Source: Desulfobacteraceae bacterium (GTDB lineage Bacteria > Desulfobacterota > Desulfobacteria > Desulfobacterales > SURF-7). Taken from it: a stretch of 64,000 bases of DNA. How positions within the stretch are numbered: position 1 is the first letter of the stretch; each line of letters begins with the position of its first letter. The notes under the pieces are model-generated. The model ran no database searches. It saw only the letters and a program-made list of their open reading frames with translations, and was not told the DNA's origin. Positions 44,927 through 60,232 of the stretch are shown here, piece by piece. A program made the translations under genes and the position numbers. Where the stretch lies: positions 58,423-122,422 of the forward strand of contig QZKS01000064.1 in the NCBI GenBank assembly GCA_003599865.1. The letters run 5' to 3'.

Positions 44927-46324
44927 TCAGCTTCTTCTTTTGACCCTTCTGACCAGTTTTCTTTTTTTGCCGGGGGATGAAGCCGTATCGGTCTGGGGCG
45001 GACCAAGGTGATCCTGCCGGAATGAGCAGGTCGATCTTGGGCACTTCAGACCGCGCTGGCCGCCTTCCGCAGGGATTTCGATCAAAAATTTATTTTTGCA
45101 CAACGGACATTCAAACGGATAGGGTTTGCCCCAGCTGATAAATCCGCAGTGTGAATTGGAACATGAATAGTATTCCTGTCCTTTTTCCGTGGTACCGGAC
45201 AAGACCTTTCCAATGTTGCATGCCGGGCAGGAGATCGCTATGGTTTCCTGAAAGGCCGCGATCTTTTTTTCAATGTTGTTCTGGTCAATGGATGCGGGTT
45301 GTGCGATCTCATCACGGATTTCATCTTTCCGGCTATCCACTCGTGTTTGTTCTTCGCGTGCGGCAATTTCCGCCTCTTTGGCCTTCAATTCCGCCTCTCT
45401 GGCTTTTATCGCCGCCTCCTGGGCTGCGATAGCGGCGGCTCTCAACTCAGCCTCTTTAGCCGTTTTTTGGGCTTCCGCAAGCACTGCCTTCTTTTCCGCT
45501 TCCAGCTCAGCCTTTGCTTCCGCCTCTCCGGCTGCCTTTTCGGCAGCTTCTTTTGCCTGAATTTCCGCTTCACTGGGGCCCTTGGGAAAAATTTCCTTTA
45601 CTGCCGGTTTTCGGTCGGATGAGATGCTTTTTCCCTCCTGCGCCAATGAACCGCCGCTGGACATCCGGGTTCGCATTCTTTCGAGTTTCTGAACATAGGC
45701 TTTTTTCAAATCATCGGATATCTGTTTGGCTTCTTTTTGATCCAGCCGGCTGCGAGGCTGGATGGAAAGTGATTTTTTTTCATCAATTTTGATATGCTGC
45801 CGGGAAAGAGGGATTCCTTTGGACTCCAGTGTCTGGTCAAACTGGCTGATTGCTTCATCCAAACCTTTACGTTTGCTGGTGACTTCGGAAATCATCTGTA
45901 GAATATACCCGACCAGATTCATTCCCTTCATTCCGGGGAACAGATTGTCCAGGAAACTCACCAGGGCAAAGGCGGAAATCTGGGCATTGTACCGGTTGCG
46001 CTTGTCGATTTCAACGTAGCCATGCTGGGCCAGTCCCTGGAATGAAACCATCAGATTATCATCAATGTCCAGTCCGATATTGGAAAGCTCATCCAGAAAG
46101 GCCTCTCTCGTGTATCGATCCGGTGGGGACTGCGGGGAGTTTTTAATCTCATTCTCCCTTTCGACCAGCACCAGCAGACAGGCGATTGTAGAAAGGTTGA
46201 AGGACAAGGATGCTGCAAGGGTATCGATTTCCAGAAGCCGCTGGATATGTCTCACCAGAATTTCATCAAACAGTGATTTGACCTCTGACAATTCCATTTT
46301 TTTTTCTTCATTGATTTCATTCAT
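44927..46324 (-). CDS. Alanine/glutamate-rich coiled-coil protein with C-terminal topoisomerase-type zinc ribbons
   Basis: Long AEAKAELEAEKKAVLAEAQKTAKEAELRAA coiled coil; CPACNIGKVLSGTTEKGQEYYSCSNSHCGF and CPLCKNKFL...LKCPRSTC zinc ribbons. Confidence 0.72.
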   Translation of the reverse strand: MNEINEEKKMELSEVKSLFDEILVRHIQRLLEIDTLAASLSFNLSTIACLLVLVERENEIKNSPQSPPDRYTREAFLDELSNIGLDIDDNLMVSFQGLAQHGYVEIDKRNRYNAQISAFALVSFLDNLFPGMKGMNLVGYILQMISEVTSKRKGLDEAISQFDQTLESKGIPLSRQHIKIDEKKSLSIQPRSRLDQKEAKQISDDLKKAYVQKLERMRTRMSSGGSLAQEGKSISSDRKPAVKEIFPKGPSEAEIQAKEAAEKAAGEAEAKAELEAEKKAVLAEAQKTAKEAELRAAAIAAQEAAIKAREAELKAKEAEIAAREEQTRVDSRKDEIRDEIAQPASIDQNNIEKKIAAFQETIAISCPACNIGKVLSGTTEKGQEYYSCSNSHCGFISWGKPYPFECPLCKNKFLIEIPAEGGQRGLKCPRSTCSFRQDHLGPPQTDTASSPGKKRKLVRRVKRRS

Positions 46325-46529: not shown

Positions 46530-47006
46530 TTAATCCTGATTGATTTCCGATATCATATCGGCAATTTTTGAGGCCATCTGCGAAACGTTTTCATTTACTT
46601 CGACCTCGGATTCAACCAGTGAATCTTCCATGAGTTCTTCATTCCCGTCCGGGCTGTTATCGGTCCTGGAATGTTTCGCGGAAGGTGAAGACAAGGAGCC
46701 TTCTTCATCCGCTTTCTGATCATCGGTCAGTGCCGTAACAGTCAGGCACTCACCCTTGCGGTCAAACAGAACGGAAAGAGAAATCCGGACATCAAAATTC
46801 AGTTTATAGGCAATCTGATTGTTGTGAACAACGATGTCGCCGTTTTTATACTCAATATCTTCCTGGAATCCCAGATGATATTTATTCTTAAAAATTTTTT
46901 CTATGGCTTCCCAGTCCAGATCTCCGGTGATGGCATCAATCAATTCCTTTTCTCCCATTTGTATGACATCAGAATCCGTTACTTTCACCAGGCCCCCTTT
47001 AAGCAA
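46530..47006 (-). CDS. Hypothetical protein with acidic C-terminal half
   Basis: Intact 158-aa ORF, globular N-terminus (KVTDSDVIQMGEKELIDAITGDLDWEAIEKIFKNKYHLGF...). Confidence 0.55.
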   Translation of the reverse strand: MLKGGLVKVTDSDVIQMGEKELIDAITGDLDWEAIEKIFKNKYHLGFQEDIEYKNGDIVVHNNQIAYKLNFDVRISLSVLFDRKGECLTVTALTDDQKADEEGSLSSPSAKHSRTDNSPDGNEELMEDSLVESEVEVNENVSQMASKIADMISEINQD

Positions 47007-47164: not shown

Positions 47165-47929
47165 TCAGGCAATTTTCTTCAGCAGCTCAACCGAAAAATC
47201 AAAATAGGCCTGAGCCGCTTCAGAACGGATATCGCAAAGTGCAACCGGTTTTCCGGATCGGCTTGCTTTTTGGACCATATCATCCCGGGGGATGGTCGTC
47301 TTGAAAGATGGATACGGGATTTGTTTCCGTTCACCTTCTGAAAGAAAGCGGTCCGGACCATCTTTTCCGGAACACATATTCCACAATGTCCCGGCAATTT
47401 TCAAATCCGGATTCAACTGATCCTGTACCATTTTGATGATCTCATCAAGGTCGGACAATGCCTCCCGTGTGGAAACATTGCACGCTGCCGGCAATATGGA
47501 CCAGTCCGAAGCCGCCATTGCACAGATCGTAAAAAAACCCAGGGAAGATGGGGAATCAATGATGACATACTGAAAGTCATTTTTGATTTCCTGAATGATT
47601 TTTTTTAAAATCAACTCTTTTCCCGGTTTGATCGCCAGCCGGTGCTCGGTCAGAAAGAGACTGGGACCGGATGGTATAAACGTCAAATACGCAATCGGTG
47701 TTTGAACCGCAACCTGTCCGGCAGACGCCTTTCCCATGAATGCGTGGTACAGGGTATCCGTGATTTCCATGGGCCGGATGCCGGCATATCGGGTCAGATG
47801 GCTTTGCGGGTCGCCGTCGATTAACAGTGTTTTTTTCTCATAAAGGGCAAGGGTGGCGGCAATGTTGGCTGCAATCGTTGTTTTGCCGACCCCTTCTTTT
47901 TGGCTGATAATACTGATGGTTTTGGTCAT
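47165..47929 (-). CDS. ParA/MinD/Soj-family ATPase
   Basis: ISIISQKEGVGKTTIAANIAATLALYEKKTLLIDGDPQSHLTRYAG deviant Walker A; YVIIDSPSSLGFFTICAMAASDWSILPA. Confidence 0.92.
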   Translation of the reverse strand: MTKTISIISQKEGVGKTTIAANIAATLALYEKKTLLIDGDPQSHLTRYAGIRPMEITDTLYHAFMGKASAGQVAVQTPIAYLTFIPSGPSLFLTEHRLAIKPGKELILKKIIQEIKNDFQYVIIDSPSSLGFFTICAMAASDWSILPAACNVSTREALSDLDEIIKMVQDQLNPDLKIAGTLWNMCSGKDGPDRFLSEGERKQIPYPSFKTTIPRDDMVQKASRSGKPVALCDIRSEAAQAYFDFSVELLKKIA

Positions 47930-48095: not shown

Positions 48096-50276
48096 TTGAG
48101 TTCAACGATTACCAAAAATGGTCTGGAAACGGCGATTTCAAATCTCCGGTACCGGAATCCCAAGCTTCCCAAAACCCGTCTGATAGAGGCGATTCGGTCT
48201 TTCTATACGGCTGAGGATGCACTGGAAACCGTTTCCCGGATTGACACTGATACCCTCATCGGAATGATATGGGAACCTGACGACAACCCCGAGCTGATCA
48301 AATCCAGACGGAAGAATCTGAACAGTGTCAAAGCAATTGTAAACAATGACCTGACGCGCCTTTTTCAGGAGGATAAAAATCCGGAAGGGATTATCATCGG
48401 TCCGGCGAACACCTTTGTCATGTCGGATGCGGCAAAGGAAAGACTCTTGTCCTCATTTGCCGACTCGGCCAAGGCCCAGGGTAACCTGCCGCTGGAGAGA
48501 GTCGCGGAAGTTTTGAATGTCATCAGTCAGTTCATATCTGAGATGGAGCAGCGCAGCGACGGCAATCCAAAAGATGAGGTTAAAAAAATACTGGATTTGA
48601 TCAAAGGAATGGCTGCAAAAGCCGGGTTCGATGGAGAGTCGGATGCCGGCGTGGAGGAAGTAAAAACGGATGCTTTTCAAGAGGTCGATGAAGACGAAAT
48701 AGAAGAAATTGATGCGGATGAAATTGAGGAAGTGGAAGAAATCACAGATGATGATCTGGAGATCCTGGAAGATACCGAGCTTGAAGAAATAGACGAAGAC
48801 GTTGATCTTGAGGAGGTGGATGCAGATGAAATTGAAGAGATCGATGATACGGACATAGAGAAAATCGATGCCGATGAAGTGGAAGAAATCGACGATGAGG
48901 ATGTGGAGGAAATAGAAACGGATGATTTTGAAGAGTTCGATGGAAGCGAAATAGAAGAAATTGATGCGGATGAAACTGAGGAAGTGGAAGAAATAACAGA
49001 TGATGATCCGGAGATTCTGGAAGATACCGAGCTTGAAGAAATAGACGAAGACGTTGATCTTGAGGAGGTGGATGCAGATGAAATTGAAGAGATCGAAGAT
49101 ACAGACCAAATCGATGCTGATGAAGTGGAAGAAATCGACGATGAGGATGCGGAGGAAATAGAAACGGATGATTTTGAAGAGGTCGATGAAGACGAAATAG
49201 AAGAAATTGATACGGATGAAATTGAGGAAGTGGAAGAAAATGCAGATGATGATCCGGAGATTATAGAAGATACCGAGGTCGAAGAAATAGACGAAGACGT
49301 TGATCTTGAGGAGGTGGATGCGGACGAAATTGAAGAGATCGATGATACGGACATAGAAGAAATCAATGAAGACGATCTGGAAGAGATCGATGAAGATCAA
49401 TTGGGCCTGCCCCGTGACAACCTTGAACAAAACGATTTTCAAACCGATGAAAACCTTCTTGCCGAGCAGTTTGACGGTTTTCTCGGCAGCATGGAACGAT
49501 ATTACAACCAGTATCTCCTGGTGCCCGGCGGAAACTATCGGATTGGAAATCAATCTCATTCCGATATTGATCTGCCGGAACAGCAGATCTCCCTGCCGGA
49601 TTTTTATATCGGAAAATATCCGATATCCAATGCCTTGTTTGAGGTATTCGTGGAAAGGACAGGCTACAAGACAACCGCCGAAAAACTAGGATATGGATGG
49701 GTGTATTCCGGCCGTTTCCGTAAACATGAAAATCTGAAAACCGGTGTCAGAAGTTCCGAATGGAAGGCAACCTATTCCAGGGAAAAAGTGAGCGGCGCTT
49801 ACTGGTATCAGCCAACAGGTCCGGGAAGCACCCTTCACGGCAAACGAAACCATCCGGTGGTTCAGGTCAGTGTTCAGGATGCGGTCCATTTTTCCGCATG
49901 GGTTGGGAAACGTCTTCCTGCTGAATTTGAATGGGAGGCGGCAGCAAGAACATCAGAAGGATATCCCTATCCCTGGGGGAATGAATGGATGGAGAATGCC
50001 TGCAATTATGAACGGAGCGCGATCTCCGACACCACTCCCGTGGATCGGTATCCCCAGGGCGAAAACAGCCTCGGGATCGCGGACACCCTCTGCAATGTCC
50101 TGGAGTGGACATCCGATCAGGTCAAGCCGGTTTCCGGAAAAATCGTGGGAAAGACATACAATATCGCCAAAGGCGGGTCGTGGATTTCCGACCGGACAAT
50201 TCAACTGTCCAACCGGTTCCGTTTTGAGTCCGGCTTCACGGCGAATATTCTGGGATTCCGCTGCGTGGCGGATTGA
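48096..50276 (+). CDS. SUMF1/formylglycine-generating-enzyme domain protein with acidic tandem repeats
   Basis: C-terminal FGE-sulfatase domain (LVPGGNYRIGNQS...YPISNALFEVFVERTGY...HPVVQVSVQDAVHFSAWVGKRLPAEFEWEAAAR...YPYPWGNEW...VLEWTSDQ...KGGSWISD...NRFRFESGFTANILGFRCV); TTG start. Confidence 0.9.
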   Translation: MSSTITKNGLETAISNLRYRNPKLPKTRLIEAIRSFYTAEDALETVSRIDTDTLIGMIWEPDDNPELIKSRRKNLNSVKAIVNNDLTRLFQEDKNPEGIIIGPANTFVMSDAAKERLLSSFADSAKAQGNLPLERVAEVLNVISQFISEMEQRSDGNPKDEVKKILDLIKGMAAKAGFDGESDAGVEEVKTDAFQEVDEDEIEEIDADEIEEVEEITDDDLEILEDTELEEIDEDVDLEEVDADEIEEIDDTDIEKIDADEVEEIDDEDVEEIETDDFEEFDGSEIEEIDADETEEVEEITDDDPEILEDTELEEIDEDVDLEEVDADEIEEIEDTDQIDADEVEEIDDEDAEEIETDDFEEVDEDEIEEIDTDEIEEVEENADDDPEIIEDTEVEEIDEDVDLEEVDADEIEEIDDTDIEEINEDDLEEIDEDQLGLPRDNLEQNDFQTDENLLAEQFDGFLGSMERYYNQYLLVPGGNYRIGNQSHSDIDLPEQQISLPDFYIGKYPISNALFEVFVERTGYKTTAEKLGYGWVYSGRFRKHENLKTGVRSSEWKATYSREKVSGAYWYQPTGPGSTLHGKRNHPVVQVSVQDAVHFSAWVGKRLPAEFEWEAAARTSEGYPYPWGNEWMENACNYERSAISDTTPVDRYPQGENSLGIADTLCNVLEWTSDQVKPVSGKIVGKTYNIAKGGSWISDRTIQLSNRFRFESGFTANILGFRCVAD
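48681..49400 (+). repeat. Three tandem ~246-252 bp coding repeats (acidic, E/D/I-rich)
   Basis: GATACCGAG..GAAGAAATAGACGAAGACGTTGATCTTGAGGAGGTGGATGC recurs from 48771, 49023 and 49269 (periods 252 and 246 bp). Confidence 0.9.
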
Positions 50277-50322: not shown

Positions 50323-51210
50323 ATGGATCATTTCATCGATCAATACTTGCAGCATCTGACGATTGAAAAAGGGCTTTCCGCCAATACCATCGAGTCTTAC
50401 CAGCGGGATCTTTTCCGGTTTTTCGATTTTCTGAACCACAATGGAATAAAAGACCTTTCAGAATGTGATACGGCCGTTCTCCTGAAATACATCATTGACA
50501 TGAGAAAGGAAGGACTCTCCGCCCGATCCAGAGCCAGGCATATCGTCACCTTAAGAGGATTTTTCAATTTTCTGGTGCAGGAAAAAAGCCTGGGAACCGA
50601 TCCCACTGAAATCATCGATCTGCCCAAAACAGGACTGCGCCTTCCGGACTTTCTTTCTGTGGATGAAATCAGTCTGCTTCTGAAAATGCCGGATACCGGA
50701 AATCCCAAAGGAGTCAGAGATTCCGCCATGCTGGAACTGCTGTATGCTGCCGGATTGCGCGTTTCCGAGCTGGTGAACATACAGCTCGGAACGGTTTATC
50801 TGGAATCCGGATTTGTCCGGGTAATGGGCAAGGGTTCCAAAGAGCGGGTGGTCCCCATCGGCGGATTTGCAAGGGAATCCCTTGAAACCTATATCCGGAC
50901 GGCCCGGCCTCTTTTACTGAAAAACATCCAGAGCAAGTATCTTTTTGTGGCAAGAGCCGGGAAACCGATGACCAGGCAGGGATTCTGGAAACTGTTAAAA
51001 AAATATGCCCGTCAGGCAGGCATCCAGAAGAAAATCACGCCCCATTCCATTCGTCATTCTTTTGCCAGTCATCTTCTGGAAGGAGGAGCGGATTTGAGAT
51101 CCGTGCAGGTCATGCTCGGACACTCGGATATATCCACTACCCAGATCTATACCCACGTGGCCCATGAACACCTGGTGAATATGCACCGGAAATATCATCC
51201 GAGAGGATGA
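50323..51210 (+). CDS. xerD: Site-specific tyrosine recombinase XerD
   Basis: IDQYLQHLTIEKGLSANTIESYQRDLFRF; LLYAAGLRVSELVNIQLGTV; VMGKGSKERVVPIG; HSIRHSFASHLLEGGADLRSVQVMLGHSDISTTQIYTHV. Confidence 0.94.
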   Translation: MDHFIDQYLQHLTIEKGLSANTIESYQRDLFRFFDFLNHNGIKDLSECDTAVLLKYIIDMRKEGLSARSRARHIVTLRGFFNFLVQEKSLGTDPTEIIDLPKTGLRLPDFLSVDEISLLLKMPDTGNPKGVRDSAMLELLYAAGLRVSELVNIQLGTVYLESGFVRVMGKGSKERVVPIGGFARESLETYIRTARPLLLKNIQSKYLFVARAGKPMTRQGFWKLLKKYARQAGIQKKITPHSIRHSFASHLLEGGADLRSVQVMLGHSDISTTQIYTHVAHEHLVNMHRKYHPRG

Positions 51211-59472: not shown

Positions 59473-60027
59473 TTATTCTCCGCAACCGCAACCACGATCA
59501 CTGTCGCAGCCGCAATCATCTTCGCATCCGCAATCATCTCCGCTTCCGCAGCTGCAATCATCTCCGCAGCCGCATCCGTCGTGTTCCTGGGTCGGGGTGT
59601 CACTGATTCCGACCACTTCGATTTCAAATGTCAATGCCTCGCCGGCCAGCGGGTGGTTCAGGTCAAACGTGATGCTCTCGTCCTCAACCTTTATGATTTG
59701 AGCAGGTATCTGATGACCGTCCGGAGTGGAAAGCGAGATAATCTCCCCTTCCTGGGGATCCATCTCCGGAGGGACTTCCTGTCTGGAAATGGAATGAACG
59801 GCGTCTTCATGCCTTTGTCCGTATGCATCCTCCGGGGCAATGGTAAAGGTCTTTTTTTCATTCAACGACATATCCATAAGCTGGGCTTCAAAACCCTGAA
59901 TCAACTGCCCGGCACCCATCTCGATTTCAAGGGGTGGACATCCCTGGCTGGTGTCGAATACCTCACCGTTCTGCAAGGTTCCGGTGTATTCAACACAGAC
60001 AAACATGCCATTTTTAACTTTTTTCAT
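59473..60027 (-). CDS. slyD: FKBP-type peptidyl-prolyl isomerase SlyD with Cys-rich tail
   Basis: VCVEYTGTLQNGEVFDTSQGCPPLEIEMGAGQLIQGFEAQLMDM; FDLNHPLAGEALTFEIEVV; tail HDGCGCGDDCSCGSGDDCGCEDDCGCDSDRGCGCGE. Confidence 0.93.
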   Translation of the reverse strand: MKKVKNGMFVCVEYTGTLQNGEVFDTSQGCPPLEIEMGAGQLIQGFEAQLMDMSLNEKKTFTIAPEDAYGQRHEDAVHSISRQEVPPEMDPQEGEIISLSTPDGHQIPAQIIKVEDESITFDLNHPLAGEALTFEIEVVGISDTPTQEHDGCGCGDDCSCGSGDDCGCEDDCGCDSDRGCGCGE

Positions 60028-60232
60028 GAAATGCTCCTTTGGATAAAAAGTAATAAGTTGCAAATAACATAGCCATGAAATCGGGATATTCAAGATGACG
60101 TTCGATTATTCTTTTTTGGGGTCATTCCGCGGTTTCCGAATATTTCCTTATTCTCATTTATCAAACAATGTTGTATTCCGGTTCGAATAGGATATGTTCT
60201 GGTATAAAAACAGCCGAAGGGGGAGAAAATTC

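Follow-up and report, generated by a model that had tools for sequence, protein, structure and literature searches.

A predicted non-catalytic SUMF1/FGE-fold protein with a tandemly duplicated hyperacidic linker and its putative partner, a degenerate topoisomerase I, in Desulfobacterota

The gene located at positions 48096–50276 of the analyzed window (i.e., the whole 64,000-nt stretch of DNA, situated on contig C5 of the 97%-complete, 5.0 Mb host assembly G000) encodes a protein which joins a SUMF1 domain of the formylglycine-generating enzyme (FGE) fold to a hyperacidic, repeat-containing linker, and which occurs together with a degenerate relative of topoisomerase I, called here pseudo-TopA. 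Among 395 genomes, 18 encode both proteins, 377 encode neither and none encodes one alone. This pairing is well supported, and it is very probable that the two proteins work together; they probably form an undescribed DNA-associated complex. The host is a bacterium of the sulfate-reducer type, its closest named relatives are Desulfobacterales MAGs labelled Desulfosudis oleivorans, and it should be stressed that the genomes compared in this work were mostly draft or metagenome assemblies. The features distinguished within the window are presented in Table 1.

Table 1. Features of the SUMF1/pseudo-TopA locus and its neighborhood (positions refer to the window).
Feature	Positions	Strand	Basis
Pseudo-TopA (465 aa), a degenerate topoisomerase I devoid of TOPRIM and the catalytic core	44927–46324	-	Domain series, co-occurrence
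Polybasic C-terminal tail of pseudo-TopA, GKKRKLVRRVKRRS	44930–44971	-	Found in 44/44 partners seen to the C-terminus
C4 zinc ribbon pair, homologous to the final two ribbons in the true TopA of the genome	45026–45229	-	Alignment
Topoisom_bac core remnant, profile positions 311–403	45869–46153	-	E 0.19 alone; intermediate forms
Small conserved acidic-tailed protein, no known family	46530–47006	-	Ortholog comparison; paired with ParA
ParA/MinD-like ATPase, divergently transcribed	47165–47929	-	AAA_31 E 4e-42; 8ray E 2e-81
Whole gene: N-domain, hyperacidic linker and predicted non-catalytic SUMF1/FGE domain, 726 aa	48096–50276	+	ORF; single-copy orthologs
N-domain (aa 1–180), helical, beta-hairpin after long helix	48096–48635	+	38-ortholog alignment; AF2
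Hyperacidic linker (61% D/E) with an EIEEIDAD-like unit of 8 residues	48636–49400	+	Composition, ortholog comparison
Acidic repeat, copy 1	48642–48898	+	DNA self-comparison
Acidic repeat, copy 2; identity with copy 1, 83%	48894–49150	+	DNA self-comparison
Acidic repeat, copy 3; identity with copy 1, 88%	49140–49396	+	DNA self-comparison
SUMF1/FGE (PF03781) domain, predicted non-catalytic	49509–50267	+	Pfam E 3.9e-49; alignments
Two FGE copper-binding cysteine positions: Ser (50187–50189) and Gln (50202–50204)	50187–50204	+	Alignments
XerC/D-type tyrosine recombinase, frequent downstream neighbor, not claimed as a functional member	50323–51210	+	Pfam; neighborhoods

The open reading frame, listed previously from the nucleotide sequence, is real, with a TTG start preceded by AAGGGA, and its product is composed of the N-domain, the linker (aa 181–435) and the SUMF1/FGE domain (aa 472–724), the latter being recognized in the earlier note and confirmed here by Pfam. 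The earlier reading was right about an FGE fold without FGE chemistry; what it overlooked were the partner, the genes encoding a ParA-like ATPase and a small protein, and the wide conservation of the gene. When the SUMF1 domain was used as the query (ortholog threshold: E<1e-60), 105 of the 390 genomes sampled from the order, in 40 of 150 genera, each yielded a single strong match. With the N-domain profile, in turn, a single match was obtained in each of 62 genomes out of the 86 examined from one family, 20 of the 21 genomes of genus g89 being among them, and the profile reached further classes of the phylum. The orthologs are single-copy in Desulfobacterota.

As judged by sequence, the nearest solved structures of the SUMF1 domain are human and bacterial FGEs (E 2e-52), and this strong family match speaks for an active FGE or a related oxidase of the EgtB/OvoA/SenA type. 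Such an activity is, however, highly improbable. The inspection of the FGE active-site cysteines, proposed in the earlier note, revealed that both are absent here, with Ser and Gln in their places, and the copper-binding pair (C336 and C341 in the human enzyme) was found in 0 of 57 orthologs, for which reason an active FGE was rejected; the NCBIfam equivalog models of EgtB, OvoA and SenA scored 51–72 bits, far under their cut-offs of 360–420. The alignments therefore show a SUMF1 protein which, by its predicted active site, is a non-FGE, and the non-sulfatase use of the fold supposed previously agrees with the finding of neither a sulfatase role nor a sulfatase locus. The protein shares with the FGE/SUMF1 family (PF03781, including SUMF2-type and FGS forms) the fold and sequence family of its C-terminal domain, but it differs in the replacement of both copper-binding cysteines, in the fusion of a new N-domain and the hyperacidic linker, and in being partnered by a pseudo-topoisomerase.

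The fold alone allows two other readings. Variable proteins of diversity-generating retroelements share the C-type-lectin/FGE fold, and 2y3c was among the distant PDB matches of the SUMF1 domain. A retroelement target was nevertheless rejected as having next to no probability, since no reverse transcriptase is present in the ORF list of the 40–58 kb region (the two RVT_1 matches of the host are on other contigs) and the C-terminal region is conserved among species and not diversified. By analogy with FGS domains, which have been proposed as sensors or effectors in prokaryotic conflict systems (PMC8195603), the inactive FGE-fold domain might also be an invader sensor of an immunity system. This is unlikely: PADLOC gave no match, neither a STAND, MoxR-vWA or effector-associated domain nor a reverse transcriptase was found at the locus, the C-terminal region lacks diversification, and a gene that is single-copy and near-universal in some genera (such as g89) is unlike a mobile defence gene.

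The linker was described in the earlier note as built of near-identical 252- and 246-bp tandem repeats. Three real copies of about 257 nt each are present, spaced by 252 and 246 nt (starts at 48642, 48894 and 49140), and TRF reported a period of 246 with a score of 1191 for the array, although the wording was a little strong for copies of 83–88% identity. The best 225-nt self-match reached 92%, a level which none of 300 block shuffles approached (62% at the highest), and copies 1 and 3 use the same codon at 58 of 65 matched residues, where 34 would be expected from codon usage; the copies are therefore true duplications and not merely a result of biased composition. As they differ by 12–17%, an assembly artefact is also argued against for this array. 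In three ortholog linkers (L008, L010 and L102), N-runs, translated as 34 X, were observed inside the acidic repeats, which suggests that short-read assemblies collapse or break at such arrays.

At the protein level, the linker is disordered-looking and contains only 2 K/R among its 255 residues, while its hydrophobic residues, placed every 3 and 5 positions, follow a period of 8 residues (autocorrelation 0.54). In 48 complete orthologs, all linkers are acidic (27–70% D/E, net charge from -23 to -269), their length ranges from 57 to 506 aa, and in 33 of them exact internal peptide repeats exceed those of shuffled sequences. The linkers of sister species have different repeat units, from which it follows that the expansion recurs independently; linker length changes through internal duplication. 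The comparison of repeat number suggested in the earlier note, run here between species, thus revealed strong variation and no conserved, non-variable unit, which bears out the expansion and contraction of the acidic repeats. Its suggestion of an acidic Ca2+-binding or structural protein, with which a linker of 61% D/E would be compatible, is very unlikely, as both the periodic I/L/V pattern and the strict association with a DNA-type partner point to an intracellular binding role. For the basic-protein binding also raised in that note, the adjacent pseudo-TopA, with its conserved polybasic tail, is a candidate partner.

The N-domain, aligned for 38 orthologs, has the invariant residues L17, Y19, W59, N74, N83, D85 and L86, and its AF2 model (pLDDT 79) can in one reading be described as winged-helix-like in the order of its elements. 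No significant match to it was found in Pfam, PDB sequences or the Foldseek fold search. RNA polymerase delta (RpoE), in which a very acidic tail containing I/L/V follows a small folded N-domain, is similar in architecture, but the N-domain profiles are dissimilar (hhalign probability 0.4%) and the SUMF1 domain is extra here, and a delta-like N-domain was rejected on the hhalign result. A search of the host genome for HARE-HTH (PF05066) gave no match above the cut-off.

Across loci, the partner has a helical N-terminal region and a middle of low complexity, to which two C4 zinc ribbons and a basic tail are added. By itself, the short protein of the window matches Topoisom_bac insignificantly (E 0.19), and its identity as pseudo-TopA therefore rests on a series of intermediates. 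In long forms from further classes (L125, L127 and L128), Toprim and Zn_ribbon_Top1 are recognized along with Topoisom_bac (E 3e-24 to 5e-21), and in the short form of L122 Topoisom_bac is still found at E 8e-5. When aligned with the true TopA, which the host genome keeps separately, the long forms are devoid of the catalytic tyrosine and of part of the TOPRIM triad, and the catalytic GLITYMRTDS is changed into GLTTTPFVRS, GLVSSFNPQG or GLVTAPFAIN. In the short forms, including that of the window, TOPRIM and the cleavage core are gone and the two remaining pieces are joined directly. All 44 partners seen to the C-terminus end with a K/R-rich, KKKLVRRVKRR-like tail (KKxKLVRRVKRR in the window), which the true TopA of the genome does not have. 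The alignments show in this way a protein that is best read as a stepwise-degraded bacterial topoisomerase I (TopA, type IA): core remnants and two zinc ribbons are kept (TOPRIM and Topoisom_bac as well in the long forms), whereas the catalytic function appears to be lost and the polybasic tail gained. No description of an inactive type IA topoisomerase paralog, or of a non-catalytic partner derived from one, was found in the literature.

The pseudo-TopA gene also carries a tandem repeat of its own (45370–45422, 21-bp period), coding for an A/E/K-rich helical stretch, so that both partner genes have repetitive, fast-changing middles; EVQKE repeats were observed in the partner of L132.

The co-occurrence given above was derived from profile matches in the 395 genomes, i.e., 17 for the N-domain and 17 for the partner (E<1e-25), 16 of them common to both. 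The mismatches were settled by inspection: in G515 the partner adjoins the SUMF1 gene (L124), and in G077 the SUMF1 gene is present, with its start lost at a contig end. The Fisher test gave 2e-31, a nominal value before allowing for relatedness, for a pair that spans at least nine families. In a targeted check, which included genomes without the partner nearby, the partner was found in 12 of 12 genomes with the SUMF1 protein (several pairs being on separate contigs) and in 0 of 7 genomes without it, the latter having only the true TopA. Depending on the lineage, the two genes are divergent, co-directional or convergent, and with gene order varying in this manner the pairing outlasts rearrangement. 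It must be added that mirror-tree correlations were high throughout, the distances of all module genes being correlated with those of the Xer gene as well (r 0.87–0.93); this demonstrates co-inheritance and not a specific interaction, and both co-occurrence and co-divergence can also stem from shared inheritance.

For the mechanism, we favor, with a probability of about 45%, a scaffold associated with DNA or RNA polymerase, made of two dead enzymes and held by the engagement of the acidic repeats with the basic tail of the partner. Pseudo-TopA would hold DNA or RNA polymerase via its zinc ribbons and tail, as real TopA does with its C-terminal zinc domains. In Escherichia coli, TopoI binds RNA polymerase via its zinc and C-terminal domains and is displaced from it by the free CTD or the inactive Y319F variant (PMC9352719), and competition of the free C-terminal domain or Y319F with active TopoI raises negative supercoiling (PMC9352719; PMC9369019). 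The acidic E/D/I repeats would engage the basic tail and mimic DNA, or compete with it; D/E repeats that are disordered and negatively charged can autoinhibit DNA-binding proteins electrostatically (PMC10250230). Such engagement would regulate or tether the complex under loose selection on linker length, with the SUMF1 domain and the N-domain acting as binding heads. Against this scaffold counts the observation that the length and charge of the linker vary widely, while the tail shows no matching variation.

The main rival to the polymerase- or DNA-associated scaffold comes from the neighboring genes. In most Desulfobacterales, a gene of a ParA-like ATPase and a gene of an approximately 150-aa protein lie ahead of the pseudo-TopA gene, co-oriented and often overlapping. 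The ParA-like protein of the window has a deviant Walker A motif and the ParA fold (best solved relative: the ParA 8ray), and Walker A is variable among its orthologs; for the small protein no family was matched, and its AF2 model has a pLDDT of 39. Considering the adjacency of the ParA-like gene, the acidic repeats could form a polar landmark, i.e., a cytoplasmic scaffold or condensate recruiting the ATPase, for which HubP/FimV and PopZ are analogous scaffolds, and it is owing to this analogy that we treat the reading as the main rival. HubP has acidic repeats whose number and length differ among closely related species (PMC12918733), and the acidic linker of PopZ tunes condensates (PMC9512792). 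With HubP/FimV, our protein shares cytoplasmic acidic repeats of variable number and a link (here, by gene neighborhood) with ParA-family ATPases, but its Pfam scan gave PF03781 only, with no LysM, transmembrane or FimV domain reported, the link with ParA is optional, and the obligate partner is a TopA relative. An acidic, length-tunable linker between two folded parts is likewise present in PopZ, but that of PopZ is rich in proline and conserved in length, and no homology was found. A ParA hub is made doubtful by loci in which either gene pair stands without the other: the SUMF1/pseudo-TopA pair is found without ParA in several lineages (L089, L122–L125, L133 and L134), and ParA with the small protein occurs without the SUMF1 protein and pseudo-TopA in L147 (7170–8545) and L148 (8107–9431). 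As the two pairs are separable, ParA was rejected as an obligate partner and is regarded as an associated part, not the defining partner. In L148 the Xer gene is still nearby, and this looks like a loss of the SUMF1/pseudo-TopA pair from the same locus.

Returning to the favored scaffold of two dead enzymes, the ParA-like ATPase and the small protein may, in most Desulfobacterales, position the complex on the nucleoid. A broader and more tentative proposal, which we consider possible but rather less probable than the scaffold itself, is that an obligate system of a pseudo-FGE with a DNA-mimicking repeat and a pseudo-topoisomerase I senses or organizes supercoiled or transcribed DNA on the Desulfobacterota nucleoid, with a ParA-type motor coupled in some lineages. 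If the pair acts on DNA or RNA polymerase, it would constitute a non-enzymatic layer controlling supercoiling or transcription, and this layer would have an electrostatic linker evolving via tandem duplication. Stages of topoisomerase decay survive across classes of one phylum, namely full-length proteins minus the tyrosine, proteins with the core deleted, and zinc ribbons with the basic tail only, and the pseudo-TopA offers a concrete partner for testing the role of hyperacidic bacterial repeats.

Seven PF03781 proteins were identified in the host genome. Among those other than the SUMF1 protein described here, two have their PF03781 domains (G000:C20:25379–26041 and G000:C4:118549–119208) in ORFs of about 1,000 aa, of which the stretches inspected resemble kinase-type fusions. 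Elsewhere in the window, an FKBP/SlyD-like peptidyl-prolyl isomerase gene (59473–60093, minus strand) contains a 24-bp tandem repeat, which codes for a Cys/Asp/Gly-rich tail of a metal-binding type.
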